From assembly GCA_017643395.1 (NCBI GenBank), contig JAEPNP010000007.1, positions 62,001 through 126,000 on the forward strand: DNA of 64,000 bases. The letters are read 5' to 3'. The notes beneath the pieces were generated by a model. The model saw nothing but the letters and a program-made list of their open reading frames with translations. It was not told the DNA's origin and did no database searches. Source of the DNA: Rhodothermales bacterium (GTDB lineage: Bacteria; Bacteroidota; Rhodothermia; Rhodothermales; UBA10348). A program made the translations under genes and the position numbers. Shown piece after piece: positions 13,188 to 35,124 of the stretch (position 1 is its first letter; each line of letters opens with the position of its first letter).

Positions 13188-13345
13188 GGGCGGCAAACTT
13201 ACGCGCCGGCCGGCCGGGTCGCTGTCACGATTGTGTTTCAGTCGGCGAGCGGACTCGGGGGCGGTGGGGGGTTCCGGGTTTGCTGGTGCCGCGGGCGGGC
13301 AGGTTGGGGGCTGCGGTGGCTGGGGTCGGTTGCGGGGCGGGCGGG

Positions 13346-13582: not shown

Positions 13583-13743
13583 GCAGGAGTGAGTCCTCCA
13601 CCGCAGGTCGTGGAAAAGGCCCTCGTGATTCGACATCGCAGAACCCGCCGTCGGTCGCTATGTGGAATCGAGGCCCTTAGTCCACCTACGCCAAAGCAAA
13701 AATGAGCCTGGAGTGGAATCGGGGCCTCGTTTTCCATGTCGGG
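13582..13743 (+). repeat. Dispersed 162-bp repeat, copy A (three hairpin units)
   Basis: This element is repeated at 14333-14494 in the same orientation with long identical stretches, for example TGTGGAATCGAGGCCCTTAG followed by TCCAC, and GAGTGGAATCGGGGCCTCG. It holds three 'TGG-AA...' hairpin units starting near 13609, 13661 and 13712, spaced 51-52 bp, the same period as the large array at 29598-30089. It lies downstream of the membrane-protein gene at 13795-14253 and upstream of gluQRS. No coding evidence. The gap 13744-13794 holds nothing recognisable. Confidence 0.8.
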
Positions 13744-14332: not shown

Positions 14333-14494
14333 GGCAGGTTTGGGTCCTCCACGGCGGGTTATGGAATGCGCCCCCGTGATTCGACCTTTGGTGCGCCCCC
14401 GTCGGCCGCAATGTGGAATCGAGGCCCTTAGTCCACATACGCCGAAGCCAAAATGGGCATGGAGTGGAATCGGGGCCTCGTTTTCCATGTCGGG
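14333..14494 (+). repeat. Dispersed 162-bp repeat, copy B (three hairpin units)
   Basis: This is the second copy of the element at 13582-13743. Its hairpin units begin near 14360, 14412 and 14463 (spacing 51-52 bp). The third unit, GAGTGGAATCGGGGCCTCG followed by TTTTCCATGTCGGG, is identical between copies. The first third is more diverged. It lies between the divergent starts of the membrane-protein gene (14253) and the phosphatase gene (14543), so it may include or influence their promoters. The remaining gap (14254-14332 and 14495-14542) shows no other feature. Confidence 0.8.
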
Positions 14495-15553: not shown

Positions 15554-15561
15554 TTTCGGGT

Positions 15562-17506: not shown

Positions 17507-17508
17507 CG

Positions 17509-19989
17509 TCAGCCCCTGTCCATGTCAGCGAGAATGCGTTGGAAGCGCGGGTTGTCACGCACCGGCTCCGCGAACGGCCAGGGCTTGAGCACGGTCATGT
17601 AGACATCCTTCGAGGTAAACCCCTGCTCCAGTTGATCCAGGGCGCGACTCGTATCGCCGAGGGCGATGTGGATCTGCGCCAGGAGGGGGGGCGCGACATA
17701 CACCGAGTCGGCTTCGTCCTCGAGTGCCTTCAGCAGCACCCGGGCGGCCGTGGTACGACCGGACCACGCAAGCGCGCTTGCTTTGAGGGCCCGCGTCAAG
17801 TGTTGAGGTTCGACTACGCCCTCGGCGTCCTCCAGGGCTTTGATTGCATCGTCCCAGCGCCCGAGCGCCAACAGTGGATAGGATCGATTCAGGTGAGCGA
17901 CATAGAAGCCGGGGTGTTCCGCGACAACCTCATCGAGAAACGAAAGCGCTCGCGTATGCTGGCCGGCGTAAAACAGCAGTTGCCCGTAGTTGGTCGGATG
18001 GATCGGGGCTACCGGGTCCAGCAGCATCGCTCGACGCTGGTGCTCCAGCGCCAACTGTAGCCGTCCGGTCTCGGCCAGGTGCGAGGCATACAGATGATGG
18101 GCCTCGGACAGGTTGGGGTTGAGTCGCAGCGCCTCCGCAAACTGATTGTCTGCCCGGTCCGTGTCCCATTCGAATTCGCTGGCGACCGAGGCGAGCGCCG
18201 TGTAGGCCAGCGCCTGCTGGGGGTCGATCCCGATCGCCTCATTCGCGGCATGCGTGGCCATAGTGAATCCCAGATCGAAGGAGGCATAGGCGGTGCCGGC
18301 ACTCAGCAGATTGGCGATGGCCAGTCCGGACCACGCGTCGGCATAGTCCGGCTCCAGCGCGACGGCCTGCTGGAAGAGGCCGGCCGCACGAGGAAGCGAG
18401 CGGGGTGTGCGCTCATTCAGGGCGGCCATTGCGCTGAGATACAGGTCCTGCGCGCGGGCGGAAACGGGGGCCCGGCGCAGTCGGGAGAGGGCCTCTCCGG
18501 TCAGCTCCAGCGCCAGGGCATCAGCAATGGCAGTCGCAATTTCCCCCTGCACATCCAGCAGCGAAGTCGCCTGGCGACGGTGTGTGCGACTCCACAGCTG
18601 CCTGCCGTCGGGTGCCATCAGCTGCACCGCGACCTGAAGGTCGCCGTTCTCCTGCTGCACCTGCCCATCGAGGAAATAGCCAACTCCAAGGTCGCCGGAG
18701 GCAGCCTGCATGTGTTCGCGATCGGCGTGTCGACCACGAACCAATTCCAGACCGGGCAGACCTCCCATACGCGTCAGGATGTCTGATGTGAGCCCCAGTC
18801 CAATGCCCGTCCGGTTTTCGGAAGACAGATCCTCGAACGGAAGCACCGCAAGACGAACCGTGGCCTCGGTCAGGAGAAGGTCCGTGCCTTTGTACACAAG
18901 GCCGGCCAGCGCGACGAGGACGGCACCCAGCACTATCCAACGCACCCGTTGCCCCTGACGGCTCGATGCATCCGCCGTCGAGAGCATCTGGACGATCTCC
19001 TGCGCGCTGGCAAACCGGGCCGCCGGCGACTTCTGCAGGCACCTCTGGACAATCTTGCTCAGATCGGCAGGCGTGCCCTCAGGCAGCGCAGGGGTAGCTT
19101 CGTGGGAGATGGCGTGCAGTACAGCTCCATCTGCCGGAGCCTGCCATGGTCGTCGCCCCGATAGCATTTCGAACAACACCACTCCCAGCGACCAGAGGTC
19201 GGTGCGCTGATCCGTCGGCTGACCAGTGGCCTGTTCCGGGCTCATATAGCCGACCGTACCGGCCCGCGAGGTGCCTCCGGTGGTGTCCTGTTGCTGAAGC
19301 ATCTTCGCGATCCCGAAGTCCAGGATCTTGAGCTGCCCGTCAGCACGCACAAGCAGGTTGGACGGTTTGATATCCCGGTGCACCACGCCGGCAGCGTGGG
19401 CCGCCCGAAGGCCTTCGGCAGCTTGCCGCACGATCGTGCGGGCCATGTCATGCGACACCGGACCCTCGCGGATCATCTCCCGGACCGTGACACCGTCGTA
19501 CACCGGCATGGTTATGAACGGGCGGTCCGGATCGCTGGTGTCGATCTCGTATATGGTGCAGATGGCCGGGTGGTCGATGTTTCCGGCCGCTCGTGCCTCC
19601 GTCAGGAAGCGGTGCGCCGCGCCCTTGCCGGAAAACGAACCCGACGGAAGAAATTTGAGCGCCACGTCGCGGTCGAGCACGGAATCGTGAGCCCGGTACA
19701 CCACGCCCATGCCGCCCCGGCCGAGTTCTTCCTGGATGTGGTAGCGCCCCAACTGGCTGCCGGCGGCCAGTGTGGCCCGGCCGGTGGAACTGCGCACAGA
19801 GGCAAGCAGCTCATCGAAATAGAGCTCCGCGGTCGGGCTCGTCATGTCGCGGAGCCGCCTGGACAGCCGCGGGTCCGATTCCGCGAGGCCACTGAGCAGG
19901 CGCTCTCGCTCGTCAGCGCCGACGCCTTCCAATCGCTCGAACCAGCGCTCGAGTTCTGACCAGTCGGGGGTGTCAGGGGAGGAATCCAT
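17509..19989 (-). CDS. Serine/threonine protein kinase with TolB-like and TPR domains
   Basis: This 826-residue protein has a kinase domain at ~82-345 (GRGGMG loop 90-95, Lys112, HRDIKPSN with Asp206, DFG 224-226). A membrane helix at ~348-366 follows, then a FlgO/TolB-like segment ('RLAVLPFEDLSSENRTGIGLGL', 'DGQVQQENGDLQVAVQL'). The C-terminal ~330 residues are TPR-type repeats ('ALEPDYADAWSGLAIANL', 'ALRLNPNLSEAHHLYASHL'). The N-terminal 70 residues are helical. The gene sits 3 bp downstream of an ECF-type sigma factor gene, the arrangement common for PknB/TPR kinases of this lineage; the kinase probably modulates the sigma factor or shares its signal. Confidence 0.93.
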   Translation of the reverse strand: MDSSPDTPDWSELERWFERLEGVGADERERLLSGLAESDPRLSRRLRDMTSPTAELYFDELLASVRSSTGRATLAAGSQLGRYHIQEELGRGGMGVVYRAHDSVLDRDVALKFLPSGSFSGKGAAHRFLTEARAAGNIDHPAICTIYEIDTSDPDRPFITMPVYDGVTVREMIREGPVSHDMARTIVRQAAEGLRAAHAAGVVHRDIKPSNLLVRADGQLKILDFGIAKMLQQQDTTGGTSRAGTVGYMSPEQATGQPTDQRTDLWSLGVVLFEMLSGRRPWQAPADGAVLHAISHEATPALPEGTPADLSKIVQRCLQKSPAARFASAQEIVQMLSTADASSRQGQRVRWIVLGAVLVALAGLVYKGTDLLLTEATVRLAVLPFEDLSSENRTGIGLGLTSDILTRMGGLPGLELVRGRHADREHMQAASGDLGVGYFLDGQVQQENGDLQVAVQLMAPDGRQLWSRTHRRQATSLLDVQGEIATAIADALALELTGEALSRLRRAPVSARAQDLYLSAMAALNERTPRSLPRAAGLFQQAVALEPDYADAWSGLAIANLLSAGTAYASFDLGFTMATHAANEAIGIDPQQALAYTALASVASEFEWDTDRADNQFAEALRLNPNLSEAHHLYASHLAETGRLQLALEHQRRAMLLDPVAPIHPTNYGQLLFYAGQHTRALSFLDEVVAEHPGFYVAHLNRSYPLLALGRWDDAIKALEDAEGVVEPQHLTRALKASALAWSGRTTAARVLLKALEDEADSVYVAPPLLAQIHIALGDTSRALDQLEQGFTSKDVYMTVLKPWPFAEPVRDNPRFQRILADMDRG

Positions 19990-19992
19990 GGA

Positions 19993-20592
19993 TCAGGGCG
20001 GCAGCTCCTCGTGGATCTCGCTGAATAGCCAGCCCCTTGCCAGCGCCCAGCGTCGCTTTACCGTGGGTGCAGAAATGCCAAGAGCCTCCGCAGTTTCTTC
20101 GACGGTCATTCCGCCGAAGAATCGGCATTCGACCACGCGAGCGAGCTCCGCGTTCTCACCATCAAGCCGAGAGAGAGCCCGCTCCAGATCCAGCAGACGA
20201 TCAGCAGTGGGTTGATCCACCAGGGCCACGTCCTCGATATCGGTCCGGTGCCGATCACCGCCCCGCTTCGCGGATCCGGCCTTGCGCGCATAGTCCATCA
20301 GCACCTGCCGCATGGCTCGGGAGGCCAGCGCGAGAAAATGCGCCCGATCACGGATCTCGTTGTCAGATCCCGCAAGCTTGAGATAGGCCTCGTGGACCAG
20401 GGCGGTCGTGTTCATGGTGAGGTTACCGTGCCATCGGCGGCGCTGGGCACGCGCTCGATTGTGTAATTCACCATAGACCAGCTCGAACAGCTGGTGCGCG
20501 GCAGGCTCATCGCCTTCGATGGCCCGCTGAAGTAGCTCTTCCGGCTGTGCCACGGGCTCCTGGGGAGGGGAGAAGACCTGCATGGTATCCAT
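19993..20592 (-). CDS. ECF-type RNA polymerase sigma factor (Sigma70_ECF, TIGR02999-like)
   Basis: This 199-residue sigma factor has region 2 ('[18 protein letters not shown]', '[11 protein letters not shown]', '[22 protein letters not shown]') and region 4 ('[24 protein letters not shown]', '[16 protein letters not shown]'). The '[10 protein letters not shown]' and '[11 protein letters not shown]' motifs are those of the kinase-associated ECF group. ATG 20592 (MDTMQVF) or the ATG three codons later are equivalent candidates. It is the first gene of the sigma-kinase operon and divergent from xylA (81 bp apart). Confidence 0.9.
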
Positions 20593-20673
20593 TTCGGGGT
20601 ACAGGAAGCAACCGGTATGCGTTTCAACTCCTTTCGATGCCGTCTAGTTTGGGGACCGAACAACTCTTGCACG

Positions 20674-21987
20674 ATGAGCACGAACTACTTCCCCGACGTC
20701 CCCGTCATCAAATTTGAGGGCCCCGAAACGGACAATCCATTGGCGTTCCGGTACTACGATCCCGAACGCCTGATTGCGGGAAAGCGCATGGCGGACCACC
20801 TGCGGTTTGCGTGCGCATACTGGCACACGTTCTGCGGCGGTGGCGGCGATCCGTTCGGTGCGCCCACGAGACAGTTTCCGTGGGATCAGGCGACGGACCC
20901 CATCGCCCGGGGCATGGCCAAGGTGGATGCTGCGTTCGAGTTCATGGACAAGCTCGGGCTGCGCTATTACTGCTTCCACGATGTGGATATGGTGGAGGAG
21001 GCTCCGACGAGTACGGAGACGGCACGGCGGCTGGACGTCGTCAGCGACCACGCCCTGACCAGGATGAAAGAGACCGGAATCGGTCTACTGTGGGGCACGG
21101 CCAATCTGTTCAGTCATCCCCGGTACATGAATGGCGCCGCCACAAATCCCGACTTCGCGGTCGTCGCGCGTGCCGGCGCGCAGGTAAAGCGAGCCCTCGA
21201 CACGACCATCAAACTGGGGGGCGAGAACTACGTGTTTTGGGGCGGCCGCGAAGGCTACATGTCGCTCGTGAACACGGACATGAAGCGGGAGCTGGCGCAT
21301 ATGGCGACGTTCCTTCACATGGCCAGGGACTATGCGCGTGCCCAGGGTTTCACCGGCACCTTCTTCATCGAACCCAAGCCGGCGGAGCCCAGCAAGCATC
21401 AGTATGACTTTGATGCGGCGACGGTTATCGGTTTTCTGAGGGCCAACGACCTTGCGGACGATTTCAAGCTGAACATTGAGGTGAACCATGCGACCCTGGC
21501 GGGCCACACGTTCGAGCACGAACTACAGGTTGCAGCGGACGCGGAAATGCTTGGATCGATCGATGCGAACCGCGGCGACTACCAGAATGGCTGGGATACC
21601 GACCAATTCCCGAACAACCTCTACGAACTTACCGAAGCCATGCTGGTGATCCTGAGAGCTGGTGGTTTCCAGGGTGGGGGCATCAACTTCGACGCGAAGC
21701 TGCGCCGGAACTCGACGGATCTGGTGGACCTCTTCCATGCGCACATCGGCGGCATGGATATGTTCGCGCGTGCATTGATCACCGCTGATCGGTTGCGACG
21801 CGAGTCGCCGCTGGAAGCGATGCGGGCCAGACGGTACGCATCCTTCGACGCTGGTCCCGGTGCGCAATTCGAGCGCGGCGCCATGAGCCTCGAGGACCTG
21901 AGTCAGCTGGCCCTTGCATCGCCCGAACCGGACCAGATTTCAGGTCAGCAGGAGCTCTACGAGAATGTGCTGAACCGATTCATGTGA
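20674..21987 (+). CDS. xylA: Xylose isomerase
   Basis: This 437-residue enzyme interconverts D-xylose and D-xylulose using two divalent metals in the cytoplasm. Class II features are visible: '[24 protein letters not shown]', 'YYCFHDVDM' (catalytic His region), '[14 protein letters not shown]', '[16 protein letters not shown]' (metal Glu and Lys), '[19 protein letters not shown]', '[13 protein letters not shown]'. ATG 20674 ([10 protein letters not shown]) matches the family N-terminus; the upstream ATG at 20617 adds 19 unrelated residues. No xylulokinase or xylose transporter lies nearby. Confidence 0.96.
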
Positions 21988-22157
21988 CGATCCGGGATTT
22001 TCCGTTTAAGTCGGACAGGTGGTCCGCCGATAACCCTTCTGCGCGCCCGGTGTCGGGTCCATCCGACGCCCGCGTACACGCCAAGCGGCGTAGCGCGCCT
22101 TACTGAATGAACCAGATCTGCGCGGGCCTGGAGTTGTCCAAACAAGGGACTTCTGCC

Positions 22158-22490
22158 ATGCGCACACTTCTTCTATCGCTGGTTCTATTCTTTTCGGCTT
22201 TCGACGCAGCTGCCACGACCTTCGAAGCGCCCGAGCGCTGCAGCATTGAGCATGCCGAACCTCCTCGCAACGGCTTCACCATCCAGGTGGCCTCGACGAG
22301 CAATCACTCCAACGCTCGCCAGATGGTCTCCGAACTGCCCGGTTCGTGGATTTCGGTGGCCTGCGTGAAGGGTGCCGAGGTATACCGTATCAACTTCGGA
22401 CGTTTTCAGGCTCGCAATCACGCCGTGGCCGGGCAGTGGGACCTCGAAGACCTCAACCCAAGCCTGTCCGGCCAGATTGTTCGATTCTAG
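22158..22490 (+). CDS. Small secreted SPOR-like protein
   Basis: This 110-residue protein has a signal peptide (MRTLLLSLVLFFSAFDAAA). Its C-terminal ~75 residues resemble a SPOR domain ('GFTIQVASTSNHSNARQMVSEL', then 'VYRINFGRFQARNHAVAGQWDL'). SPOR domains bind denuded glycan strands of septal peptidoglycan. ATG 22158 starts the signal sequence; ATG 22107 in the same frame adds 17 poor residues. It is a stand-alone domain, unlike the usual fusion to an amidase or membrane protein. The gap before it (21988-22157) shows no recognisable feature. The assignment is by pattern only. Confidence 0.7.
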   Translation: MRTLLLSLVLFFSAFDAAATTFEAPERCSIEHAEPPRNGFTIQVASTSNHSNARQMVSELPGSWISVACVKGAEVYRINFGRFQARNHAVAGQWDLEDLNPSLSGQIVRF

Positions 22491-22507
22491 GCCTGTATCA
22501 GAGGCCT
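22489..22507. terminator. Small hairpin between convergent genes
   Basis: AGGCCT at 22489-22494 and again at 22502-22507 can pair across a 7-base loop. It lies exactly between the stop of the SPOR-like gene and the stop of the DoxX gene at 22513. There is no T-run, so at best a weak bidirectional terminator. Confidence 0.3.
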
Positions 22508-22512
22508 CGCCG

Positions 22513-22878
22513 TCAGAAGATTACGATGAGCAGGCTGAGGGCGAGGACCGTAGCTGCCGGCACTGATCGCTTGACGGGGTCACTGACCTTCAGATGCATG
22601 GCAAGGGCGCCCACCATGAGGACCGCCACCAGAATGGCCGCGGGCTGGACCAGAACGGGAAAGAACAGGCCAAACAACAGCGCAAAGGCAGCCAGAATTT
22701 TGAGGCCACCCACCAGGTAATACATGAATCCTGGAAGGCCGTACGCCTCGAATTCAGCCCTTAGCGAGTTGGCGCCCTTGCCACGATATCTCGTGCTGAA
22801 GTCGGATCGAATAAGCCAGACATTCAGCAGTCCGAAAGCAATGACAATCTGAAGGAGAGGGATGAGGACGGAAGACAT
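22513..22878 (-). CDS. DoxX family membrane protein (paralogue)
   Basis: This 121-residue four-helix protein is closely related to the one at 9121-9492 ('FGLLNVWLIRSDFSTRYRG', 'SLRAEFEAYGLPGFMYYLVGGLK', '[18 protein letters not shown]'). ATG 22878 (MSSVLIPLLQIV) aligns with the paralogue's start. It follows a DUF4199-like gene (85 bp upstream) and a membrane-anchored LuxR-type regulator gene on the same strand, suggesting one regulated cluster. Function is unknown beyond the DoxX fold. Confidence 0.8.
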   Translation of the reverse strand: MSSVLIPLLQIVIAFGLLNVWLIRSDFSTRYRGKGANSLRAEFEAYGLPGFMYYLVGGLKILAAFALLFGLFFPVLVQPAAILVAVLMVGALAMHLKVSDPVKRSVPAATVLALSLLIVIF

Positions 22879-22963
22879 AGTACTTGCGAGTAACGTTGGG
22901 TTTGATACGCGACAAGCGGCCGCCGGTGTTCTCCGTCTGCAGTCTGCAATCGCCGCTGAGCGA

Positions 22964-23485
22964 TCAGCCGCGGCTCTTGGGGTGCCTGAGCAGGACCGCG
23001 GAAATGATGGTGACCAGCAGGCCGACCGGAAAGATCTCAAGGAACGTGATCGGGATGCGATAGAGTGGGTCGGCGTAGGTGGCCTTCATTTCCTCCATAT
23101 TGCGGACTTCGGCCTCGAGCGCTGCTCCCACGACGCCGTCGGCCTCAAGCCCCGCGATAATCGAGGTGGTGTATTGCTCGATAAACGCATAGTCCGTCAG
23201 CACCAGGTAGATCTCCCACAGCAGCACATAGATCACGCTGGCGATGGCCGTGATACCCAGGCCCATGAGAAATGCGGTCCCGAAGCGAATGACGCCACCG
23301 AGCTCGTTGTCTCGATACCGTTTGACGCCCATGTAGACCATGCTGAGCGCCACGGTCATGACGAGGTAGCCCAGCCACTCCAGGCCGGCGAGGTGAGTGT
23401 CTCCGGCCAGGGAGGCGGAGAGCATGGCGGAGCCGATGATGATGACTCCGGAGAAGGAGCCGTAGATGAGGGCGATGCGCTTCAT
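22964..23485 (-). CDS. DUF4199 family membrane protein
   Basis: This 173-residue protein has four hydrophobic segments: 'IALIYGSFSGVIIIGSAML', 'WLGYLVMTVALSMVYMGVKRYRD', 'GTAFLMGLGITAIASVIYVLLWEIYLV', 'FLEIFPVGLLVTIISAVLLRH'. A helical loop with 'MEEMKATYADPLYRIP' lies before the last. The phrase 'YMGVKRYRDNELGGVIRFGTAFLMGLGI' is characteristic of DUF4199, a Bacteroidota-rich family of unknown function. It lies between the LuxR-type gene and the DoxX gene on the same strand. Confidence 0.82.
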   Translation of the reverse strand: MKRIALIYGSFSGVIIIGSAMLSASLAGDTHLAGLEWLGYLVMTVALSMVYMGVKRYRDNELGGVIRFGTAFLMGLGITAIASVIYVLLWEIYLVLTDYAFIEQYTTSIIAGLEADGVVGAALEAEVRNMEEMKATYADPLYRIPITFLEIFPVGLLVTIISAVLLRHPKSRG

Positions 23486-23545
23486 GAGTCGTTGCGGTTA
23501 ACTGCCCGGATCATACTGAACTGGCCTCCCGGGGCGCGTCACCCG

Positions 23546-23574
23546 AACGGGTGATTCGCCTGCAATCACCCGTT
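23546..23574. terminator. Perfect 10-bp stem-loop after the LuxR-type gene
   Basis: AACGGGTGAT (23546-23555) and ATCACCCGTT (23565-23574) pair perfectly around a 9-base loop. It lies 4 bp past the stop of the minus-strand LuxR-type gene and 60 bp upstream of the DUF4199 start. There is no T-run, so it could be an attenuating terminator or a dyad operator for the downstream gene. A further TCACCCG at 23539-23545 offers an alternative pairing. Confidence 0.45.
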
Positions 23575-23578
23575 GGGG

Positions 23579-23989
23579 CTATGCGATCAGGCTCAGTTCG
23601 CGGGCTCGTTCTACCGCTTGCGTGCGGCGGGAGACCTCCAGCTTGCTGTACAGTCGCGCCACGTGCGTTTTGATGGTGTTGCCCGAAACGAACAGCTTGT
23701 CGGCGATCTCCGCGTTCGAGTGTCCCTTTGCCAGCAGTTCGAGCACCTCGTACTCGCGCGGACTGATGCCCAGGTACTCCATGGCTTGATCGTTGCGTGT
23801 GAACTCCGTTGCTCGCCGCTTCACGAGACGACTGCCGGCCCAAATGCCGAGCGCTACGAACACGGCTGCCACCACGCCCACATACACATCAGTGGACAGT
23901 CGCCGCACGGTGTGCTGATAATCCAGCCATTGCAGCACGAATACGAGCAGGGCCGCAACTGCGGCGTAGACGAGCATCGATCGTTTCAC
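23579..23989 (-). CDS. Membrane-anchored LuxR-type HTH regulator
   Basis: This 136-residue protein has two N-terminal membrane helices ('MLVYAAVAALLVFVLQWLDY', 'DVYVGVVAAVFVALGIWAG'). A GerE/LuxR-type HTH at ~73-136 follows ('GISPREYEVLELLAKGHSNAEIADKLFVS', 'NTIKTHVARLYSKLEV'). There is no receiver or ligand domain, so DNA binding is tethered directly to the membrane. The natural targets are itself and the DUF4199 and DoxX genes downstream; that is inference from position. Confidence 0.85.
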   Translation of the reverse strand: MKRSMLVYAAVAALLVFVLQWLDYQHTVRRLSTDVYVGVVAAVFVALGIWAGSRLVKRRATEFTRNDQAMEYLGISPREYEVLELLAKGHSNAEIADKLFVSGNTIKTHVARLYSKLEVSRRTQAVERARELSLIA

Positions 23990-24016
23990 GCCGCAAAGGT
24001 ACTGGATTCCGATGGG

Positions 24017-24838
24017 CTATCTGGCCACAAGCGCGAGTCGTACGAACAGGCCGCGGCCCGCATCGATCTGGCGCTCGTCGTCTCCCGTACCCCACTCGAG
24101 GGTGTTCTTCAGGGTGTATCCGACCTTGAACTCCGCGGAGGCGATGCGTGAGACCGGAAACTGGGCTACGGGAGCAATCGTCGCCAACGTGTGATCCAGG
24201 CGCTGCATCTCGTGATCGATGTGGAACGAGGCGGTCCCGTAGTTCGCGGCAAGACCCATACGGACCTTGTTCGGGTTTCCCAGCCAGAGGTTGGCCCGCG
24301 AAGGGGCCCTGATGTCTATGTGGATTCGATTGCGTGGGTCGGTCTTGAACTGCAGCACGGGCGCAATCGGGAGATCCAGTCTGTTGCGGTAGGTGACGCC
24401 CAGACCCCATCGCCCGTCAGACTGGTAGATGACGGCAGTGCGCAGGTCAACGTCGGCCATGGCAAGCCGAGCCTGAAAGTCGCTGGCGATCGCCGGAGAG
24501 GCGTACAGCGTCAGCGTCCCCCCGAACGCCGGAATTTGCGCTGCCACGTCATAACGGATCTCGTGGTAATGCTGCGGGCTGTCCAGTCGCGAACGCCGGG
24601 GCCCGTCGACATCCGTGCGCAGGACCCGGTACCGCAGGGCGTGCGTGACCGTGGAGGAACCGATGCGTGTCGGCAGGGCGAACCCTGCTCGTGCAGAGAG
24701 CAGGCGGGATCCGTCCCCCGGGGCCGTGCCGGAAGGGGTGACCTGGCCCGCGAGCAGCGTGAACTGGGCGGCCGCGGGCAGGGCACTCAGGATGCTCAGG
24801 GCGCTCAGAAGCGACAGGATCTGCAGCAGGGATCTCAT
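24017..24838 (-). CDS. Outer-membrane beta-barrel-like protein (DUF6268-like)
   Basis: This 273-residue protein has a signal peptide (MRSLLQILSLLSALSILSALPAAAQ). It is otherwise made of short amphipathic beta strands ('HEIRYDVAAQIPAFGGTLTLYASPAI', 'GRWGLGVTYRNRLDLPIAPVLQFK', 'EFKVGYTLKNTLEWG') and ends in 'GLFVRLALVAR'. This pattern fits an eight- to ten-stranded outer-membrane barrel; DUF6268 is my best family guess. It stands alone between the LuxR-type gene and the esterase gene on the same strand. Confidence 0.6.
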   Translation of the reverse strand: MRSLLQILSLLSALSILSALPAAAQFTLLAGQVTPSGTAPGDGSRLLSARAGFALPTRIGSSTVTHALRYRVLRTDVDGPRRSRLDSPQHYHEIRYDVAAQIPAFGGTLTLYASPAIASDFQARLAMADVDLRTAVIYQSDGRWGLGVTYRNRLDLPIAPVLQFKTDPRNRIHIDIRAPSRANLWLGNPNKVRMGLAANYGTASFHIDHEMQRLDHTLATIAPVAQFPVSRIASAEFKVGYTLKNTLEWGTGDDERQIDAGRGLFVRLALVAR

Positions 24839-24916
24839 GATCGTGCGGGATTGCTGCTTTCCTACACGTCAGGCGCCGCTGAGAGGGATCAGACCGCCGG
24901 CGCTCAATCCAGGTGA

Positions 24917-25777
24917 TCAGAACTGCCGGAAGCTCTGACTGACAAAGTGCAGCACGTCTGGAAGCGAGTCTCTCCAGTATGTCCAGGTATGCCCGCCATC
25001 CCGAACGCGGAATTCGTGCCGAACCTCCCGCTTTCGCAGTGCGATGTGCAGGAGGGCATTGCCTTCGTAGAGGAAGTCGTCGTCTCCCGAGTCGATGTAC
25101 CACCGCACGCTGTTGAGGTCGTCCACCGACAGCGTGCGAGCAAGCTCCACCGCGTTGTGACGCTGCCAGTACGCATGTGCGTCCTCGTCGCTCATGCCGG
25201 CGAGTGCCTCGCCGAACTGCCGCCGGGCCTGCTCTAGCGAGGGCGGACCGACCCAGGAAGACAGAGGGCCGGCTGCCGCGAACATGTCCGGTCGATGCAT
25301 CGCGAACATCAAGGAGCCTCCGCCGCCCATGGACAGCCCTGCAACCGCCCGGTATCGTTTTTCCGACTTCACCCGGAACGCGGACTCCACGTGAGGGATG
25401 AACTCGTCAAAGAAGTAGTCTTCGTAGTTCCATTCGCCGTCCGGGTAGTTGAAGTAGCCCAGTCTGCCCGTGAAGGCATCCGGCATCGCAATTATCATGG
25501 GTGTGGCCGTGCCTTCCCGGATCGCCTTGTCCGCGATGTGCAGCACTTCGCCAAACTGTACCCATCCGGTGTGGTCATCGCCTGCGCCGTGCAGCAGGTA
25601 CAGAATGGGATAGGAGCGCTCAGAGGTGTCGTAATCGGGCGGCAGGTAGACGGCGAAGTTGCGCTCGCCACCGAGAATTTCGGTGGGCATGGACAGGTTA
25701 TCCATGACACGGCCTGATTGCGCGAGAGCGGGGACGGTCAGGAAAAGCGTGGCAGCCGTCAGAAGGCGGGAGGTCAT
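24917..25777 (-). CDS. Secreted esterase (esterase D / feruloyl-esterase-like, alpha/beta hydrolase)
   Basis: This 286-residue protein has a signal peptide (MTSRLLTAATLFLTVPALAQ). An alpha/beta-hydrolase domain of the 'putative esterase' type follows ('FAVYLPPDYDTSERSYPILYLLHGAGDD'), with nucleophile elbow GLSMGGG (Ser149), acid region 'WYIDSGDDDFLY' and C-terminal 'DGGHTWTYWRDSLPDVL' carrying the catalytic His. Start 25777 begins the signal peptide; the frame is open to 26092 but that part is antisense to the next gene. It is divergent from the beta-lactamase-type gene at 25818. Confidence 0.88.
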   Translation of the reverse strand: MTSRLLTAATLFLTVPALAQSGRVMDNLSMPTEILGGERNFAVYLPPDYDTSERSYPILYLLHGAGDDHTGWVQFGEVLHIADKAIREGTATPMIIAMPDAFTGRLGYFNYPDGEWNYEDYFFDEFIPHVESAFRVKSEKRYRAVAGLSMGGGGSLMFAMHRPDMFAAAGPLSSWVGPPSLEQARRQFGEALAGMSDEDAHAYWQRHNAVELARTLSVDDLNSVRWYIDSGDDDFLYEGNALLHIALRKREVRHEFRVRDGGHTWTYWRDSLPDVLHFVSQSFRQF

Positions 25778-25817
25778 GGTCGATGCGGTCTTGGATTGCC
25801 CCGGCATTGTAACACCC

Positions 25818-27608
25818 GTGAGGCTGAGTCGTGTACCTGTCGTGCGATTCCTCTCCCTCATGTTGATGGCTGTCGTGTCGGGGTGCCCGGTCGCTCTGGC
25901 GCAGGCGCCGGCGACACCCCCACCGTTTGCCGCACTGGCCGACTCGGTTCGGGCGCCAGGGATTGTCTGGGCGTTCGTGGCTGGCGATTCGGTCATGCTG
26001 GGCGCCTCAGGACTCGCCGATCGGGCCGCGGGCACGGCCATGTCGGCGACCGGGACACGAATACGGGTCGCCAGCGTTACGAAAGCGGTCACAGCAGCCG
26101 CTGTGGCTCGACTCGCAGTCGAGGGGCTCCTGGACCTGGACGAAGACCTGCGAGACCGATGGGACTGGCTGAACGCTGATCATCCCGTGACCTTGCGCGG
26201 CCTGCTCACGCATACGTCGGGCTTGGATGATCCCTCGCTCGGCAACCTGGTGCGCAGTCAGACGGAGACTCTGCCCCTGGAGCGATTCCTGCGATCGCAC
26301 GCGCCGCGCCAGACCACCCGGCCGGGTGCGGCGTTCAGGTACTCGAACCGGGCCTTTACCCTTGCGGGGCTCGTGATCGCCGAGGCGGTGGACCGGCCGT
26401 TCGCGGAGGCGATGGAGGACGGGGTCTTTGCTCCCCTGGAGATGCGCTCCAGTTCCGTCGGTCGTCCCGCGGATGTGGCGGCCGCGACGGGGTACACCTG
26501 TGGTGAATGTGACCCGGTAGCGCCATTCTGGGGCCAGACCGCGCCTGCGGGAGACCTGTACACCACGGCGGAGGACATGGGCCGCCTTCTGCGATTCCTG
26601 CTTGCGGAGGGGAGCTGGGCGGACACGCTTCTCGCACCACACGTCTCCGTGCATCCTGGCGTTCACGGCATGGCGCTCGGTTGGGCTCAGTCATCGGCGG
26701 GCTCCAGGGAGCTGCTGCTGCATGCTGGAGCCGGCCTGGGAACGACGGCGCTGCTTGCCCTGGATCCCGTGGCCAGGGAGGGCCTGTTTGTCGCGGTGAA
26801 CGTGCAGAGCATGGCTTTGCTCGGCTCTGTGCTGGAAGCGTGGGCCGGACCAGATACGGCCCCCGACCACGTACCTGGAGCATCTGTTCCAGAGGGTGTG
26901 GGCGGCTGGTATCTGTCGGGCCGTGCTCCACGGAGCGGTATCGAGTCGCTGCCGGCCCTGTTTCACTACGGGGTCCAGGTGACTGCTACGACCGGTGGTC
27001 TGCTGGTTGGCGGCACGCCCTACGTTGTGGTGGGGAACGATCGCTATGCGGCTGCGGATGGCGACGGCAGGCTTGCGTTCTCCCGGGACGCGGACCTGGG
27101 GCTATTGGCCCATCGGTCCGGAAGGGGAGTCGGCCATCCGGAGACGCTCATTCGGCTGCCCCGGTGGGCTGAACCGCCGGTAATGAATGAAATCCTCTCG
27201 TTCGCCGGGGGGCTGCCACTCCTGATCGCGCTCGCCTGGCCGGTGCTGGCCGCACTTGTCTGGGCGATGCGCAAGGTGGGTGTGCGCGCGCGTGCGCTGC
27301 AGTTGCGGACGTGGCTACTGTGCGTGGGCACGGCGGCCTGTGCCCTGCCCGTGCTGTTTGTTTTCGTCGCTGGTTTCCAGCGGTTGGGGGCCACCGGCGA
27401 CGTGCAGTTTGCACTCCCGTCGGCGATGCAGTGGTCGCTGGCGGCGCCCTGGCTTCTGCTTATCGTGGTGGTCCTGGGCACGTTTGCGATAGTCAAAATC
27501 GCCGGAATGGCGCTCCTCGACCGCCTGCTCCTTGGCACCTGCCTTGTATGTGGTGTCGTGCTGCTTGCGGTTTTCGCCGCGTTCGACCTGTTCGTCCTGC
27601 CCTGGTAA
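25818..27608 (+). CDS. Beta-lactamase-fold serine hydrolase with C-terminal membrane domain
   Basis: This 596-residue protein has an N-terminal signal ('VVRFLSLMLMAVVSGCPVALA'). A class C beta-lactamase/esterase domain follows with SVTK (Ser86-x-x-Lys89) and 'FRYSNRAFTLAG' (YxN). A linker with a lipocalin-like beta segment comes next, then four C-terminal helices ('LPLLIALAWPVLAALVWAM', 'TWLLCVGTAACALPVLFVFVAGF', 'WLLLIVVVLGTFAIVKIAG', 'LLLGTCLVCGVVLLAVF'). GTG 25818 is the best start; GTG 25842 is an alternative. Such proteins hydrolyse D-amino-acid peptides or esters outside the cytoplasm; the substrate is unknown. Confidence 0.82.
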   Translation: MRLSRVPVVRFLSLMLMAVVSGCPVALAQAPATPPPFAALADSVRAPGIVWAFVAGDSVMLGASGLADRAAGTAMSATGTRIRVASVTKAVTAAAVARLAVEGLLDLDEDLRDRWDWLNADHPVTLRGLLTHTSGLDDPSLGNLVRSQTETLPLERFLRSHAPRQTTRPGAAFRYSNRAFTLAGLVIAEAVDRPFAEAMEDGVFAPLEMRSSSVGRPADVAAATGYTCGECDPVAPFWGQTAPAGDLYTTAEDMGRLLRFLLAEGSWADTLLAPHVSVHPGVHGMALGWAQSSAGSRELLLHAGAGLGTTALLALDPVAREGLFVAVNVQSMALLGSVLEAWAGPDTAPDHVPGASVPEGVGGWYLSGRAPRSGIESLPALFHYGVQVTATTGGLLVGGTPYVVVGNDRYAAADGDGRLAFSRDADLGLLAHRSGRGVGHPETLIRLPRWAEPPVMNEILSFAGGLPLLIALAWPVLAALVWAMRKVGVRARALQLRTWLLCVGTAACALPVLFVFVAGFQRLGATGDVQFALPSAMQWSLAAPWLLLIVVVLGTFAIVKIAGMALLDRLLLGTCLVCGVVLLAVFAAFDLFVLPW

Positions 27609-27613
27609 GCGCC

Positions 27614-28714
27614 TTACGGTGTCCAGTCGGCAGGCAGCGCATCGCACACACGCTCCCAGGACCAGTAGCCGTAGTGGGAGAGGGGCGGAGCGGACCCGTC
27701 TGCGAAGGGGACGCCATACCGATCCAGGAGCGCGATTCCTGTCGGCAGCTCCAGCCATGAGATGCGCTCCCGCGTGTTCGGCTGCTGCACGTTCACGGAG
27801 CGAAGGAAGGAGCCGTAGGCGGGGAGTGGTCGCTCGCGGCGGTAGCGCACCATCAGGGCTCCCGTAAACATGAGGCTGCGCGTGAGGTCATCGGGGTCGC
27901 CGTAGAGGACGGATGCGCCGCCGTCGCGGGCGTCGCCGAAGTTCTCGGAAACCGCGTCTCCACCTGAGGTCGTGCCGGGTTGCTGAACCAGCTCGGCGTA
28001 GAACCCCGACTCTGGAAGTGAACCCTCGACGAGTGAGCGAAGGAAGTGTTGGCGTGAGCCGCGATAGACTCGCTCGCGCCGTTCCTGACGACTGTCGATC
28101 ACCTTCTGATTTGCCGCGGGAAGATCCTCGAATTGCAGGCGCCCGGTAAAGTTGTAGAAGCGCTGGGTGCCCTGCAGCGTCATCCCGTGCACCGTGATGC
28201 GATAGCCCAAGTACGGATTGAGAATCTGGACCGGCTCGCGGGCGCGCACGTCCAGGCGACCGCCGTTGTTCTGAATATCCAAGGCTTGCGGGTTTTCAAA
28301 CTCGCAGCGTGATCCAGCGGGGGTGGTGCTGAAGAGCAGGTCCTCCACACGACCTCTCAGTCGGCGCAAGGCGCGAGGTTTGACGGCCTCGACGACGAAC
28401 TCACCGAGAATGACCGGATCCTCCTCGAGCTGGATGTCCTGCGCCTCAGACAAGTCAAGTCGGGGCGTGATCGAGATGGTCTTGAGGCGAAAGCCCACCA
28501 TCGAGACGACTACGACAAGCGGGCGGCGCTCCGGCAGGGTCAGCGAAAATGATCCGTCGTCTCCTACGACATCGCCCTGCTGCGTGCCGTCGATAAAGAC
28601 GTGGGCACCCGGCAGAGGACTGCCGTCAGTGGCATCGCGCACGGTACCAAACAGGCTCTGACCGTTAGCGGGCAGGGCGGCAAGCAGGGCAAGCAGGAGA
28701 AGGGGAAATCGCAT
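27614..28714 (-). CDS. Secreted carboxypeptidase-regulatory-like (CarboxypepD_reg) domain protein
   Basis: This 366-residue protein has a signal peptide (MRFPLLLLALLAALPANG). A CarboxypepD_reg-like/Ig-fold domain follows at ~20-100 ('LFGTVRDATDGSPLPGAHVFIDGTQQG', 'GDDGSFSLTLPE', 'VSMVGFRLK'), as found at the N-terminus of TonB-dependent receptors. The remaining ~260 residues are unrecognised and beta-rich ('VRAREPVQILNPYLGYRITVHGM', 'YNFTGRLQFEDL'). No TonB-receptor barrel is present, so it is a stand-alone exported protein. Its stop lies 6 bp from the stop of the convergent hydrolase gene. Confidence 0.78.
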   Translation of the reverse strand: MRFPLLLLALLAALPANGQSLFGTVRDATDGSPLPGAHVFIDGTQQGDVVGDDGSFSLTLPERRPLVVVVSMVGFRLKTISITPRLDLSEAQDIQLEEDPVILGEFVVEAVKPRALRRLRGRVEDLLFSTTPAGSRCEFENPQALDIQNNGGRLDVRAREPVQILNPYLGYRITVHGMTLQGTQRFYNFTGRLQFEDLPAANQKVIDSRQERRERVYRGSRQHFLRSLVEGSLPESGFYAELVQQPGTTSGGDAVSENFGDARDGGASVLYGDPDDLTRSLMFTGALMVRYRRERPLPAYGSFLRSVNVQQPNTRERISWLELPTGIALLDRYGVPFADGSAPPLSHYGYWSWERVCDALPADWTP

Positions 28715-28796
28715 GCGCGCTCCTACGCCGATCCGAGTATTTGATCCCTCGCCTGACCGGCGGTAGCATGCGATACACCTTCCCCGTCATCGGTCC

Positions 28797-29501
28797 ATGC
28801 GCGTCATCGTCCTGTTTTTGCTGCTACTCATCCCCGCCAGCGCGCTCGGTCAGCCCTTCGAGGGGGAAACGCTCTATCGGGTCACCACCGTGCGAGCCAC
28901 GCCCGGGACCTGGCAGGACTTCATGGCGCATTGGAAGGAGGTGATCGCGTCGTGGCCGGATGAGGTCGGTGAACGCGCGTTCTGGATGCGGCACAGCCAG
29001 GGGGACCAGTGGGACTTCCTCTTCTTCTTCCCGCTGGACGACGCCGGCGCGTGGCTTTCGTCCGCCGAACACCCCATGTGGAGCCTCGGAACCGACGATC
29101 GCGTGGCGGAGACGAGTGATCTGTTCGCCTATGGCGCTCCCGTGGGGGTCTTGCGGCCACAGGCCGAGAGCGCCGGGTTCTTCCATGTCGAGATGTTCAC
29201 CGCCATCCCCGGCAGCCGCGAACGGCTTCTGGAGCAGCGGCGCATGGAGAATGCGTTTCTGGCCGGCATCGGTCGGCCGCAAAACTTCATCTTCCGCCGG
29301 CATTCGGGCGTGGCGGTCGATGCCTTCACGCTCGGCTTCTACCGCGACATCAAGCACTTCGCCGAGAGCGCGGATGTTGACCCGGACCTCGAGGAGCGCT
29401 CGGCCAACGCAGCCGGGTTCGACGGCGTTGGCGGCATCAGCCCGCTCTTGCGAAGCCTGATCGCGCGGCACCATGACACGTTGGCCGTCGCGATTCGCTG
29501 A
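28797..29501 (+). CDS. Hypothetical secreted protein, possibly dimeric alpha/beta barrel
   Basis: This 234-residue protein has a signal peptide (MRVIVLFLLLLIPASALG). Two similar halves each start with a 'TTVRATPGTWQDFMAHWKEVI' or 'EMFTAIPGSRERLLEQRRMENAFL' type segment, reminiscent of NIPSNAP/ferredoxin-like alpha/beta barrel repeats. There are no catalytic motifs. It is divergent from the CarboxypepD_reg gene (82-bp shared promoter region, 28715-28796) and is followed by the 52-bp hairpin array. Confidence 0.6.
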   Translation: MRVIVLFLLLLIPASALGQPFEGETLYRVTTVRATPGTWQDFMAHWKEVIASWPDEVGERAFWMRHSQGDQWDFLFFFPLDDAGAWLSSAEHPMWSLGTDDRVAETSDLFAYGAPVGVLRPQAESAGFFHVEMFTAIPGSRERLLEQRRMENAFLAGIGRPQNFIFRRHSGVAVDAFTLGFYRDIKHFAESADVDPDLEERSANAAGFDGVGGISPLLRSLIARHHDTLAVAIR

Positions 29502-29597
29502 GGGCGCGGCGTTGGGGCGGCGGTGGCCCTGGCGGTCTGGGCGGGTGCGGCCCCGCGGTCCAGGCGGGAGCGGCCCCGCGGTCGGGGCGGGAGCGCT

Positions 29598-30089
29598 TGT
29601 GGAATCCCGGGGGGCGGATCACACGTCGGCGCGGTTCTGGCAGGCCCACATGTGGAAACGCGGGGGTGGATTACACCTCGGCGCCGTCGTGGCGAGGGCC
29701 TTTGTGCAATCGTAGGGGCTGATTACACTTGAGCGCGGTCGGGGCGCCGGCGCTTGTGGAATCGTGGGTGCTGATTACACTTGAGCGCGGGCCAGGGCGC
29801 GGTCGCTTCTCGAATCCGGAGGTGGATCACACGTCGGCGTGCTCCTCGCGGTCGCTTCTCGAATCCGGGGGGTGGATCACACCTCGGCGGGCTCTGCGCG
29901 GGCGCTTGTGGAAACTTGGGGCCGGATTCCGCCTCGGCGCGGTCGGGGCGGGGGCGCTTGTGGAAACATGGGGGCGGATTACACCTCGCCGCCGTCGTGG
30001 CGAGGGCCTTTGTGTAATCGTGGGGCCTGATTACACTTGAGCGCGGGCCAGGGCGCCGGCGCTTGTGGAATCGTGGGGCTTGATTACAC
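29598..30089 (+). repeat. Array of ten hairpin repeats with ~52-bp period
   Basis: Ten units start at 29598, 29651, 29703, 29755, 29808, 29857, 29907, 29959, 30011 and 30064, giving spacings of 49-53 bp. Each contains a 25-27 bp inverted repeat of the form TGTGgAATC...GATTACAC. In the unit at 30011 the TGTGTAATC/GATTACAC arms pair perfectly; other units carry matched or single changes in the arms. The ~26 bp between hairpins is GC-rich and itself conserved (GAGCGCGGTCGGGGCG-like). The array fills the 724-bp gap between two convergent genes (29501 and 30226). The flanks 29502-29597 and 30090-30225 are very GC-rich without clear units. Confidence 0.85.
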
Positions 30090-30225
30090 TTGAACGCGTG
30101 CCGCTGCGGTCCGGGCGGTCCGGCCGTGCCGCGGCGGCCGCGCGCACGCGTGAGCTCAGCCGCCCGCTCGCTCCGGCCGCGCCGACGGCAGGCGCAGTCC
30201 GCGCCGAACCCCGCCCGCCGACACG

Positions 30226-30840
30226 CTACTCGCTCAGTTCGGGCGCGGTAGGCAGGCTGATGTTGCGGGCCATGGCCCAGAAACGCAGACCGGTGGTAGT
30301 ACCTGCCGTCAGCAAGACCCGCATGGGTTCGATGATTTCGATCCCCGCCAGCGCCCAGTAGACGAGCCCGCCGAGTAAGGCGGCCGTGGCGTAAAAGCCG
30401 CCCTTGATGACAGCGGGGACCTCACGGACCAGCAGGTCGCGCACGACGCCGCCCCCGGTCGCGGTCAAGGCCGCCATCATCATGATGCCGATGGGGCCAA
30501 GCCCGAAGACGTGCCCTTTGGCGGCCCCGATGGCCGCGAAAACGCCCAGACCAATCGCGTCGGCTACCAGCACGCGATTCCACCGTCTCGCTAATGGTGG
30601 CGCCGATCGAAATACGATGGCACCTGTGACTACACAGACGATGAGATAGAGCTCGTCCTGGAAGACGGCGGGGGGCGTGGCACCCAGCATCATGTCCCGG
30701 ATGATGCCACCACCGACCCCGGTGGCCGTGGCGAGCACCATGAAGCCGAGGAAGTCAAGTTGATGCCGATTGGCCTGCAAGGCCCCGGATGCGGCAAATA
30801 CCACCGTGCCGGCGATATCCACGAGATAGAGCAGATCCAT
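30226..30840 (-). CDS. Trimeric intracellular cation (TRIC) channel family protein, UPF0126
   Basis: This 204-residue, seven-helix membrane protein has two pseudo-repeats. Each carries the glycine-rich motif 'ATATGVGGGIIRDMMLG' or 'ALTATGGGVVRDLLVRE', diagnostic of the bacterial TRIC/YadS (UPF0126) family of K+-selective channels. Its ATG overlaps the LysR stop by one base, so the two are probably translated together, although LysR regulation of this channel is only suggested by position. Confidence 0.92.
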   Translation of the reverse strand: MDLLYLVDIAGTVVFAASGALQANRHQLDFLGFMVLATATGVGGGIIRDMMLGATPPAVFQDELYLIVCVVTGAIVFRSAPPLARRWNRVLVADAIGLGVFAAIGAAKGHVFGLGPIGIMMMAALTATGGGVVRDLLVREVPAVIKGGFYATAALLGGLVYWALAGIEIIEPMRVLLTAGTTTGLRFWAMARNISLPTAPELSE

Positions 30841-34173: not shown

Positions 34174-35124
34174 CTATCGGGTCAAATCCCGGATGACAGA
34201 CTGCAACGCGCTCCGCAGGTCTTCCTTCAGCCAGTCGCCCCCGTGCCTACGATCTCGCAGAAGCCGGTCCAGGGACACGTCTTCGTAGTCCTGATCCCTG
34301 AGATCCCGCACCAGTCGACGGTCCACGCCGAGGATCTTCATGGCGACCAGCCTGTCTGCGGTGAAGTCGTCGAGGCCGAGCGCACTCATCTCGTCCAAAT
34401 AATCCTGATCCACACGGTAGATCCGGAGTCGGATGGCCTGTTCCGGTGTCAGGCCGCGCAGTCCGAGCTCCCTCATTTCAGCGATGAACTCCGCGTCGAC
34501 ACGGTGAATGCGGAACGCGATGAGGTCTCCGGCTCCGATGTCCGGAAAGCCCATGTCATGAACTTCATCAACGTAGTCCGGGGAGACGCCATGGATGCGA
34601 AACGCGGTGTACTGGTCAGGATCGGATGGCCTGACGCCGCGCTCCTGCATCTCGGCAATGAAGTCCGGAGTGACGCGGTGGATGCGGAATCCGACGAGGT
34701 CATCGCCCGAGAGGTGGCCGAGTTTCAGACGCTGCATCCCGCGCACGTAGTCGGGAGTCACGCGATGGATCCGGTACGCTACCAGGTCGTCGGGGTCGAG
34801 TGACGTCAGTCCCGCGGCGGCCATCTCTTCCACCATGCCCGAAGAGACGCCGTGGATGCGGAAGGCAACCAGTTCATCAGCCGAGACATCCTTCAGGCCG
34901 GCTTCGGCCATTGACTCGACGAAGCCGGGGGTAACGCCGTGGATGCGAAACGCAATCAGTTGATCCGGCGATAGTCCGCGCAGCCCGGCCTCGTGCATGG
35001 ATTCGACAAAGCCAGGGGTCACTCCGTGCACGCGGAAGGCTCGTCGTTGATCGGAAGTCAGCGTGCCCTGGGCCGCGACGGGCCAGGCAATGAGCGCACA
35101 CAGGAGCAGGGTGGTAAGGCGCAT
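34174..35124 (-). CDS. Secreted protein of nine 29-residue repeats
   Basis: This 316-residue protein has a signal peptide (MRLTTLLLCALIAWPVAAQ). Residues 29-289 are exactly nine 29-residue units of the type AFRIHGVTPGFVESMAEAGL plus a nine-residue tail such as KDVSADELV, each predicted as two helices. The first repeats are nearly identical, the last two most diverged. Units like 'IHGVTPEYV...L..L..DDLV' occur at the C-terminus of some Bacteroidota M56/BlaR1-type proteins; here they stand alone. There is a charged 27-residue C-terminus. Function is unknown, a helical-solenoid binding scaffold is likely. Confidence 0.8.
   Translation of the reverse strand: MRLTTLLLCALIAWPVAAQGTLTSDQRRAFRVHGVTPGFVESMHEAGLRGLSPDQLIAFRIHGVTPGFVESMAEAGLKDVSADELVAFRIHGVSSGMVEEMAAAGLTSLDPDDLVAYRIHRVTPDYVRGMQRLKLGHLSGDDLVGFRIHRVTPDFIAEMQERGVRPSDPDQYTAFRIHGVSPDYVDEVHDMGFPDIGAGDLIAFRIHRVDAEFIAEMRELGLRGLTPEQAIRLRIYRVDQDYLDEMSALGLDDFTADRLVAMKILGVDRRLVRDLRDQDYEDVSLDRLLRDRRHGGDWLKEDLRSALQSVIRDLTR

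Follow-up and report, generated by a model that had tools for sequence, protein, structure and literature searches.

A dispersed family of three-palindrome elements in a Rhodothermales genome and its relatives, probably a REP/RAYT-like partnership built on a PLD-family protein

REP sequences and the RAYT enzyme are the standard example of a bacterial population of palindromic repeats accompanied by a dedicated enzyme. In three reports (PMC3733652; PMC3116915; PMC8266576), REPs are described as dispersed palindromic extragenic repeats, found mostly between unidirectional and convergent genes; in REPtrons, a dedicated gene lies near the repeats or is flanked by them, and repeat-specific versions of the gene occur when several repeat families are present. 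BfiI, according to PMC10388346, is a homodimer, where a dimeric PLD core is flanked by two DNA-binding domains. The array described here lies in a 64,000-nucleotide stretch of a Rhodothermales genome, indicated below as the window; the whole genome, indicated as G000, measures 4.5 Mb, in 21 contigs, and is 98% complete. The array is best read, with fair probability, as a member of a dispersed family of three-palindrome elements, forming a REP/RAYT-like duo with a protein of the PLD family.

The array and its flanking genes are reported here, in window positions; genes were predicted with a home-made finder.

28797–29501, plus strand: left flanking gene, 234 aa, without Pfam match, 3' end toward the array
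29596–30092, no strand: ten-dyad array on a 52-bp lattice, between convergent genes; units 2–4 duplicated as 8–10
29596–29627, no strand: dyad 1, spacer 10
29649–29679, no strand: dyad 2, spacer 9
29701–29731, no strand: dyad 3, spacer 9
29753–29783, no strand: dyad 4, spacer 9
29806–29835, no strand: dyad 5, spacer 8; left half degenerate, CTCGAATC
29855–29885, no strand: dyad 6, left half degenerate, CTCGAATC
29905–29935, no strand: dyad 7, spacer 9
29957–29987, no strand: dyad 8, spacer 9
30009–30039, no strand: dyad 9, the sole unit with perfectly complementary arms, GTGTAATC/GATTACAC
30062–30092, no strand: dyad 10, spacer 9
30226–30840, minus strand: right flanking gene, 204 aa, PF03458 Gly_transporter, 3' end toward the array

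The ten palindromes, 30–32 bp each, share the core GTGKAAT-N11-ATTMCAC and follow each other at steps of 53, 52, 52, 53, 49, 50, 52, 52 and 53 bp, occupying 497 of the 724 bp (29502–30225) which separate the two convergent genes. The first-pass annotation had described ten palindromic units at 49–53 bp steps, with perfect arms in the unit at 30011: the ten units and their steps were recovered, and the 8-bp arms at 30012 alone are perfectly complementary. Tandem Repeats Finder reports a period of 52, 9.9 copies and 72% matches. Dyads with at most three mismatches number 12 in the window, including 8 in the array, whereas shuffled sequences would give 0.56. The block of units 2–4 (29649–29805) is 90% identical to that of units 8–10 (29957–30113), a duplication overlooked in the earlier annotation, which indicates that copying of a triplet accounts for at least part of the growth of the array. 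The ten-unit array is best read as a local expansion of a three-palindrome element, partly by triplet duplication. Two three-dyad copies of this element are present in the same window:

13607–13740, no strand: second window element, canonical three-dyad copy
13795–14253, minus strand: 152-aa ORF between both three-dyad copies, without Pfam or NCBIfam match
14358–14491, no strand: third window element, three-dyad, a duplicate of 13607–13740 across the small gene

GC-rich tandem repeats of 40 bp and 23 bp (13343–13580 and 29532–29595) directly adjoin palindrome elements of the window, and further elements of the genome (L002, L061) likewise lie amid GC-rich repeats. Elsewhere in the window, a 316-aa ORF (34174–35124, minus strand) consists of repeats in which a RIHGVTPGFVESM-like motif recurs; the tandem repeat of 87 bp at this place is coding. 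Of the flanking genes, the left one is matched in 10 of the 28 genomes compared, G000 among them, and the product of the right one is 77% and 72% identical to its nearest named relatives. In the related MAG SS_bin_36 (L073), the transporter gene appears, by eye, convergent to an apparent phosphodiesterase gene, which in the window sits at 14543–15553; there, about 14.7 kb (15554–30225), ending at the array, separate the two genes. No clean case of an empty site of the array was found: the right-hand gene of SS_bin_36 has a different convergent neighbour.

The first-pass annotation had proposed a search for further copies, and many were found, both in G000 and in its relatives. In the whole of G000, exact GTGKAATC-N5..14-GATTMCAC sites number 22, against 0 in the control, and palindromes with at most two mismatches 247, against 3. 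The underlying spacing emerges from half-sites alone: within a sample of 464 kb, the intergenic part (43 kb) contains 130 half-sites, most commonly paired at 52 bp on the same strand, and at 19 and 33 bp on opposite strands, while the coding part (419 kb), with 381 half-sites, lacks these peaks. Half-site words also top the list of over-represented intergenic 8-mers. A position matrix, trained on 0.91 Mb, retrieves 140 dyads at score 13 and none in the reversed control.

Dyads tend to be grouped by three. Of the G000 chains of at least two dyads, 35 out of 42 have exactly three, the others having two (2 chains), four (3), seven (1) or ten (1, the window array); in none of the 35 three-dyad elements does a fourth dyad, at -52 or +52, exceed the threshold. 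Within the even sample (39 stretches, each of 20 kb), there are 19 such chains, of which 14 have three dyads, 3 four and 2 two: scaling of these 19 leads to an estimate of about 110 elements per genome, or 129 with a slightly extended set of stretches. The loci analyzed amount to 33, derived from the even sample (14), the window (2) and motif searches (17); they hold 44 chains, a count from which 16 of 18 single dyads (scores 10.1–18.0) were excluded.

The canonical element spans about 134 bp, with palindromes and linkers of 31-21-30/31-21-31 bp. Each dyad is composed of 11 + 9 + 11 bp, the spacer of the middle one being 8 in 21 of the 35 elements; linkers are of 21 bp, and both have this length in 27 of the 35. 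The half-site consensus, GAAGTGGAAT, is about 10 bp long and occurs as an inverted pair, about 20 bp apart, in each palindrome. Core half-site columns hold about 0.8–1.7 bits, linker columns mostly less than 0.6, with one at 1.1, in a 35-element profile where near copies from the same locus are counted in. Since half-sites are about 20 bp apart and dyads about 52 bp, corresponding to about two and five helical turns, the six half-sites would, by arithmetic, roughly share one face of the helix.

Between different G000 loci, half-sites and their spacing are conserved, and it is the spacers and linkers which vary, the linkers appearing unrelated. Linkers acting as guides were considered and rejected, as the matches of 52 of them to the remaining sampled genome were not better than those of their reversed or shuffled versions. 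A functionless minisatellite, produced by replication slippage, could account for the local expansions to seven and ten units and for the likeness of units within a locus. It fails to explain why half-sites and spacing recur at 33 sampled loci whose linkers are unrelated, and also in a second genus, or why three units are the rule: for the family, slippage is hardly credible, yet the ten-unit copy may have grown in this way.

Three other intergenic arrays of G000, with a period of about 51 bp, carry different cores: ATGGAACCT...AGGTTCAAT at L059 (11290–12181), ATGGAACCT...AGGTTGCAT at L054 (1342–1911) and AAGTTGAATACGG at L002 (2020–2250). They are possibly sister families on the same lattice. 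The earlier statement that the array matches nothing known holds for the collections searched: no match reached the Rfam gathering score in 133,113 bases from 7 sources, and no relatives of the array were found in plasmids and phages. Nor was a comparable system of repeat and protein found in the literature searched, most subscription papers and preprints being beyond its reach.

The first-pass annotation had also suggested that arm changes often keep pairing, a view which the arms do not support. For the 140 G000 dyads, arm complementarity is 0.599, slightly lower than the 0.626 of shuffled arms, and with one dyad per locus it is at or under the shuffled value in six draws out of six. A set of 29 elements, each from a separate locus, was drawn from four genomes (25 from G000, 2 from G001, 1 each from G002 and G010): 70.7% of the cells are paired, against 70.9% after shuffling, and 319 of 500 shuffles equalled or exceeded the observed value; an excess of pairing is absent in this set on all five measures. 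From alignment A2, one of 26 G000 elements from different loci (L069) was left out for its odd spacer. Single columns reach z +2.5 in one of the tests on the G000 arms. Slid versions of the palindrome are paired at 29–43%, against the 70.7% of the proper register, as expected of any palindrome. At the half-site position which varies, 95 dyads read GG on their two sides in 48 cases, GT in 21, TG in 19 and TT in 1, where about 5 TT would be found if the sides were independent. Each half seems to be read separately, as expected of a dimeric DNA-binding protein.

The absence of covariation indicates that the hairpin is not what is selected, and the reading of half-sites by a protein fits better; a hairpin or RNA function, also lacking any Rfam match, was rejected. 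Of the two alternatives originally put forward, selection on structure and a palindrome-binding protein, only the latter is thus retained: half-sites and spacing are kept, and a candidate HTH-PLD gene, described below, lies beside the elements.

The location of the elements relative to genes was determined for 34 sampled element-bearing sites of G000, none of which falls within a predicted gene. Neighbours are known for 30 of them: 17 are co-directional, 10 convergent and 3 divergent, compared to 76, 12 and 58 among 146 baseline intergenic regions longer than 150 bp. Elements are thus over-represented between convergent genes (P 0.0008) and rare between divergent ones (P 0.0014); both figures are to be taken as indications, because motif searches supplied about half of the sites and a simple finder the genes. 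Restricted to the even sample, the numbers are 8, 3 and 0 (n=11).

A REP/BIME array of the classical type would be selected for its hairpin, in RNA or single-stranded DNA, and would owe its spread to a RAYT tyrosine transposase. Such arrays are likewise palindromic, dispersed, intergenic and enriched between convergent genes, in line with the description of REPs in PMC3733652. The likeness noted at first sight is therefore real as to behavior: short palindromic repeats are found in many extragenic copies (31-bp dyads, 0 of 34 in genes, 247 places), and rarely between divergent genes. It does not extend to membership. The Y1 transposase domain PF01797 has no matches in G000 (98% complete), G002 and G010, and since G000 is devoid of this RAYT-type transposase, the array is not a REP/BIME by membership; three Y1 matches in G001, one of 10 positive genomes out of 31, are in favor of the hairpin reading. 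The consensus of the 35 elements, moreover, features no GTAG/CGTC tag beside the half-sites, and the arms do not covary. This explanation, already disfavoured, is given very little credit.

The distribution of the family was analyzed with R1, a sequence-only model of the element. In a search of 100 related genomes, where up to 33 candidates per genome were scored, so that match counts are not copy numbers, the element is present in four: G000, G001 and G002, from one genus, and G010, from another genus of the same family. Under stricter filters, none is found in the remaining 96. Across the phylum, 2 of 296 drawn genomes are positive, again G000 and G010; counts over genomes treat relatives as independent. 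Three dyads are the commonest arrangement in the relatives as well, with 6 of 7 chains in G001, 3 of 4 in G002 and 11 of 21 in G010, where the others have four dyads (7) or two (3); these loci were chosen by motif or model, and chain lengths do not represent an even sample. An A/T tract occupies the midpoint of 33 of the 46 G010 linkers, where 1.3 would be expected; the counts elsewhere are 4 of 13 (G001), 1 of 7 (G002) and 2 of 52 linkers (G000).

Recent-looking copies are visible in G001 and G010. In G000, two or three near copies lie a few hundred bp apart at 10 of the 33 loci; as no linker sequence common to different loci is seen, recent movement is not visible in this genome. In G001 and G010, some elements are found within larger repeated units:

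L185, L195, L228, L229, L230 and L232 (G001): copies of a unit of about 330 bp, starting with CTAGCAGTCTGTCGGACTT (this end visible in four)
L214, L215, L224, L227 and L198 (G010): a repeat bounded by inverted ends (about GGGCGTGTTCACACTC) close to CTAG, containing palindromes and parts of an HxlR gene

The six G001 copies are 84–98% alike and extend from CTAG to the third dyad; the right end is visible in five, four of which have CTAG there. L232 has only two dyads; beyond its second palindrome, another CAGTCTGTCGGACT sequence takes over. The five related G010 copies have their inverted ends near CTAG-like tetranucleotides, with exact CTAG at both ends only in L224; L198 contains a 118-aa HxlR-like ORF. 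The HxlR regulator beside one G010 array was considered as a partner of the elements and rejected: it has no match in G000, G001 and G002, and its fragments belong to the repeated G010 unit.

These units might suggest that the elements are passengers of ordinary miniature transposons (MITEs) inserting at CTAG. Five related G010 copies indeed lie in, or share parts of, a unit with inverted ends about GGGCGTGTTCACACTC by CTAG or near-CTAG, and six G001 copies are at one end of the 330-bp unit beside CTAG. Inverted ends are seen around one G010 subfamily; the ends of the G001 unit are unlike. Other G010 copies are alike over the array only, as L188 and L222 (93% over 115 bp; L222 begins at a contig end, and one flank is short), and a MITE alone would not preserve half-sites and spacing. 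We regard this explanation as very improbable. The element family disperses, partly inside larger units.

Four genes beside G010 elements have a match above 40% in the sampled G000 DNA, and none of the four has an element there. One G002 neighbour gene has an element also beside its G000 match, and for one further G010 gene the element is at the same end in G000. Neighbours common to species amount to two same-end orthologue pairs and a PLD gene, while chance, by a hand estimate, could give one or two. At L186 (G002) and C1:1235030-1235374 (G000), an element lies upstream of orthologues which are 64% identical and, judged by eye, TonB-receptor-like, with three dyads in one species and seven in the other.

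The PLD gene was found by comparing the genes neighbouring the elements across genomes. Its product contains a PLD-like domain (PF13091, E 3.8e-15), and six such proteins were collected, 62–67% identical to the first, in all of which the HxKx4D (HKD) and GSxN active-site residues are invariant. Within the 100 genomes, strong matches are found in G000 (2 genes), G001 (1) and G010 (3, one being the query), all element-bearing; the other 97 contain no comparable matches, the two weak ones being at 36% and 29%. The two G000 genes occupy C1:1745006–1745647 and C7:26587–27177. Across the phylum, 2 of 394 genomes are positive. No homologues were found in phages and viral contigs, and plasmids gave a single 26% match. 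The gene is therefore present in three of the four element-bearing genomes. In G002 (88% complete, 630 contigs) elements are present and the PLD gene was not found: this is the main loose end for the proposed duo.

Co-occurrence is accompanied by adjacency. R1, built without these loci, finds elements near four of the six PLD genes (L239, 2e-25; L241, 1e-15; L246, 8e-9; L240, 7e-7), while as background 21 of 543 G000 genes have a chain of at least three dyads within 500 bp. L239 and L241 are not independent tests, since the protein was noticed through the elements beside these two genes; independent adjacency comes from L240 and L246, by the model, and from L244 and L245, by eye alone and with variant half-sites. 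At L246 and, by eye, at L245 half-sites read GTTGAAT instead of GTGGAAT, on the same lattice; L244 shows a still weaker variant. The third palindrome overlaps the likely start codon at L241 and L245, which suggests autoregulation; at L239 the element is downstream of the PLD gene, on its 3' side, and not upstream. A motif-free lattice score places L239, L241 and L245 in the top 1–1.3% of the background, L240 and L244 at 18% and L246 at 42%. Being confined to ±500 bp of the PLD domain, it missed the L246 array; this score discriminated poorly, and the R1 search was relied on instead.

The candidate partner is a small orphan protein, in which a probable helix-turn-helix is combined with an intact HKD phospholipase-D domain. 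The structure model is weak (mean pLDDT 63.8; trimmed proteins are worse, 54.7), with no Foldseek match at E<=0.001 and a best VIA Z of 5.3. Within it, three N-terminal helices (residues 50–84) stand out, with pLDDT 84–88 over residues 51–80. The N-terminus shows a weak structural likeness to HTH chains of LsrR, SorC and DeoR at Z 4.7–5.3, a level perhaps reflecting only a common arrangement, and it has no Pfam HTH match; the C-terminal part aligns weakly with Nuc, NucT and TrmBL2, all structural matches being at Z 4.5–5.3. Among all 20 triples, the three proteins beside GTGGAAT elements rank first for similarity of the N-terminal domain, and 16th for that of the PLD domain. The presumed recognition helix reads ANVYAR in the two proteins beside GTTGAAT sites and SNV in the other four. 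The apparent match between helix and half-site, based on six protein sequences, is only a lead.

From these observations we infer binding, class specificity, autoregulation, cleavage and mobilisation by the HTH-PLD protein. A dimer, with a PLD core and two DNA-binding wings, as in BfiI, would bind each palindrome: a probable HTH joined to a PLD domain, dimeric in BfiI according to PMC10388346, fits a protein straddling inverted half-sites two turns apart. Paralogues would read different versions of the half-site, elements at the start of the HTH-PLD gene would be its own operator, and the protein may keep or spread the elements, as RAYT does with REPs. More specifically, and tentatively, an HKD enzyme with its own HTH might be a dedicated mobiliser of the three-palindrome element, acting by PLD (phosphohistidine) chemistry on paralogue-specific half-sites (GTGGAAT, GTTGAAT, perhaps a third). 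We know of no prokaryotic transposase of the PLD class. The three-dyad plan may resemble the Tn3-type res site, with its three resolvase dyads and a crossover dinucleotide.

Alternatively, the elements may be cooperative binding sites of a protein organising the chromosome or regulating genes, possibly the HTH-PLD protein itself in a TrmBL2-like role, with three phased palindromes nucleating a wrapped or looped complex. The 52-bp phasing and the presence of exactly three palindromes would suit such a complex, as would the A/T tracts at the midpoint of G010 linkers, the appearance of TrmBL2 among the best, though weak, structural matches, and the same-end elements on orthologous genes in two species pairs. 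On the other hand, the HKD catalytic motif is intact; G000 linkers lack such A/T tracts (2 of 52), all four G010 neighbour genes with a G000 match lack the element there, and near copies lie side by side at 10 of 33 loci. For gene control, the rarity of elements between divergent genes is a further contrary point. This explanation is judged rather unlikely, and the duo of repeat and HTH-PLD protein is preferred.

The HTH-PLD protein would be a second, unrelated class of protein found beside a repeat family, and would suggest that the association of repeats with an enzyme arose more than once. With one short gene, defined 31-bp sites and natural half-site variants, it would offer a clean system for studying why and how genomes keep repeats. 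Should the protein organise DNA instead, it would be a bacterial parallel to chromatin proteins of HTH-PLD type, with visible sequence-specific nucleation sites.

Compared with described systems, the family is closest to REP/REPIN and RAYT (TnpA_REP), with which it shares dispersal, extragenic siting, a neighbouring gene and, apparently, gene versions matching repeat versions. REPs are single or in inverted pairs, while here three palindromes lie on a 52-bp lattice; the RAYT enzyme is an HUH Y1 protein, while the candidate here is an HTH-PLD protein, and neither the GTAG/CGTC tag nor hairpin covariation is present. DrmC, of DISARM, and DpdK have a similar PLD domain (NCBIfam, 38.6 and 36.5 bits; PADLOC), and the partner protein is far under their curated cut-offs of 133 and 100. 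The archaeal regulators TrmB and TrmBL2 join a PLD-like fold to a DNA-binding domain in a similar way, by weak matches, but the best score to the Pfam family Regulator_TrmB is 18.6 bits, against a cut-off of 22.2, and here the HKD motif is intact. BfiI-type nucleases (PMC10388346) likewise combine a PLD catalytic domain with a separate, sequence-specific DNA-binding domain, which is C-terminal in BfiI, while the HTH predicted here is N-terminal and the sites are dispersed and palindromic. The plan of repeat and neighbouring gene is that of a REPtron; as the enzyme class differs and Y1 is absent in G000, G002 and G010, the system probably works like REP/RAYT, as a non-member.
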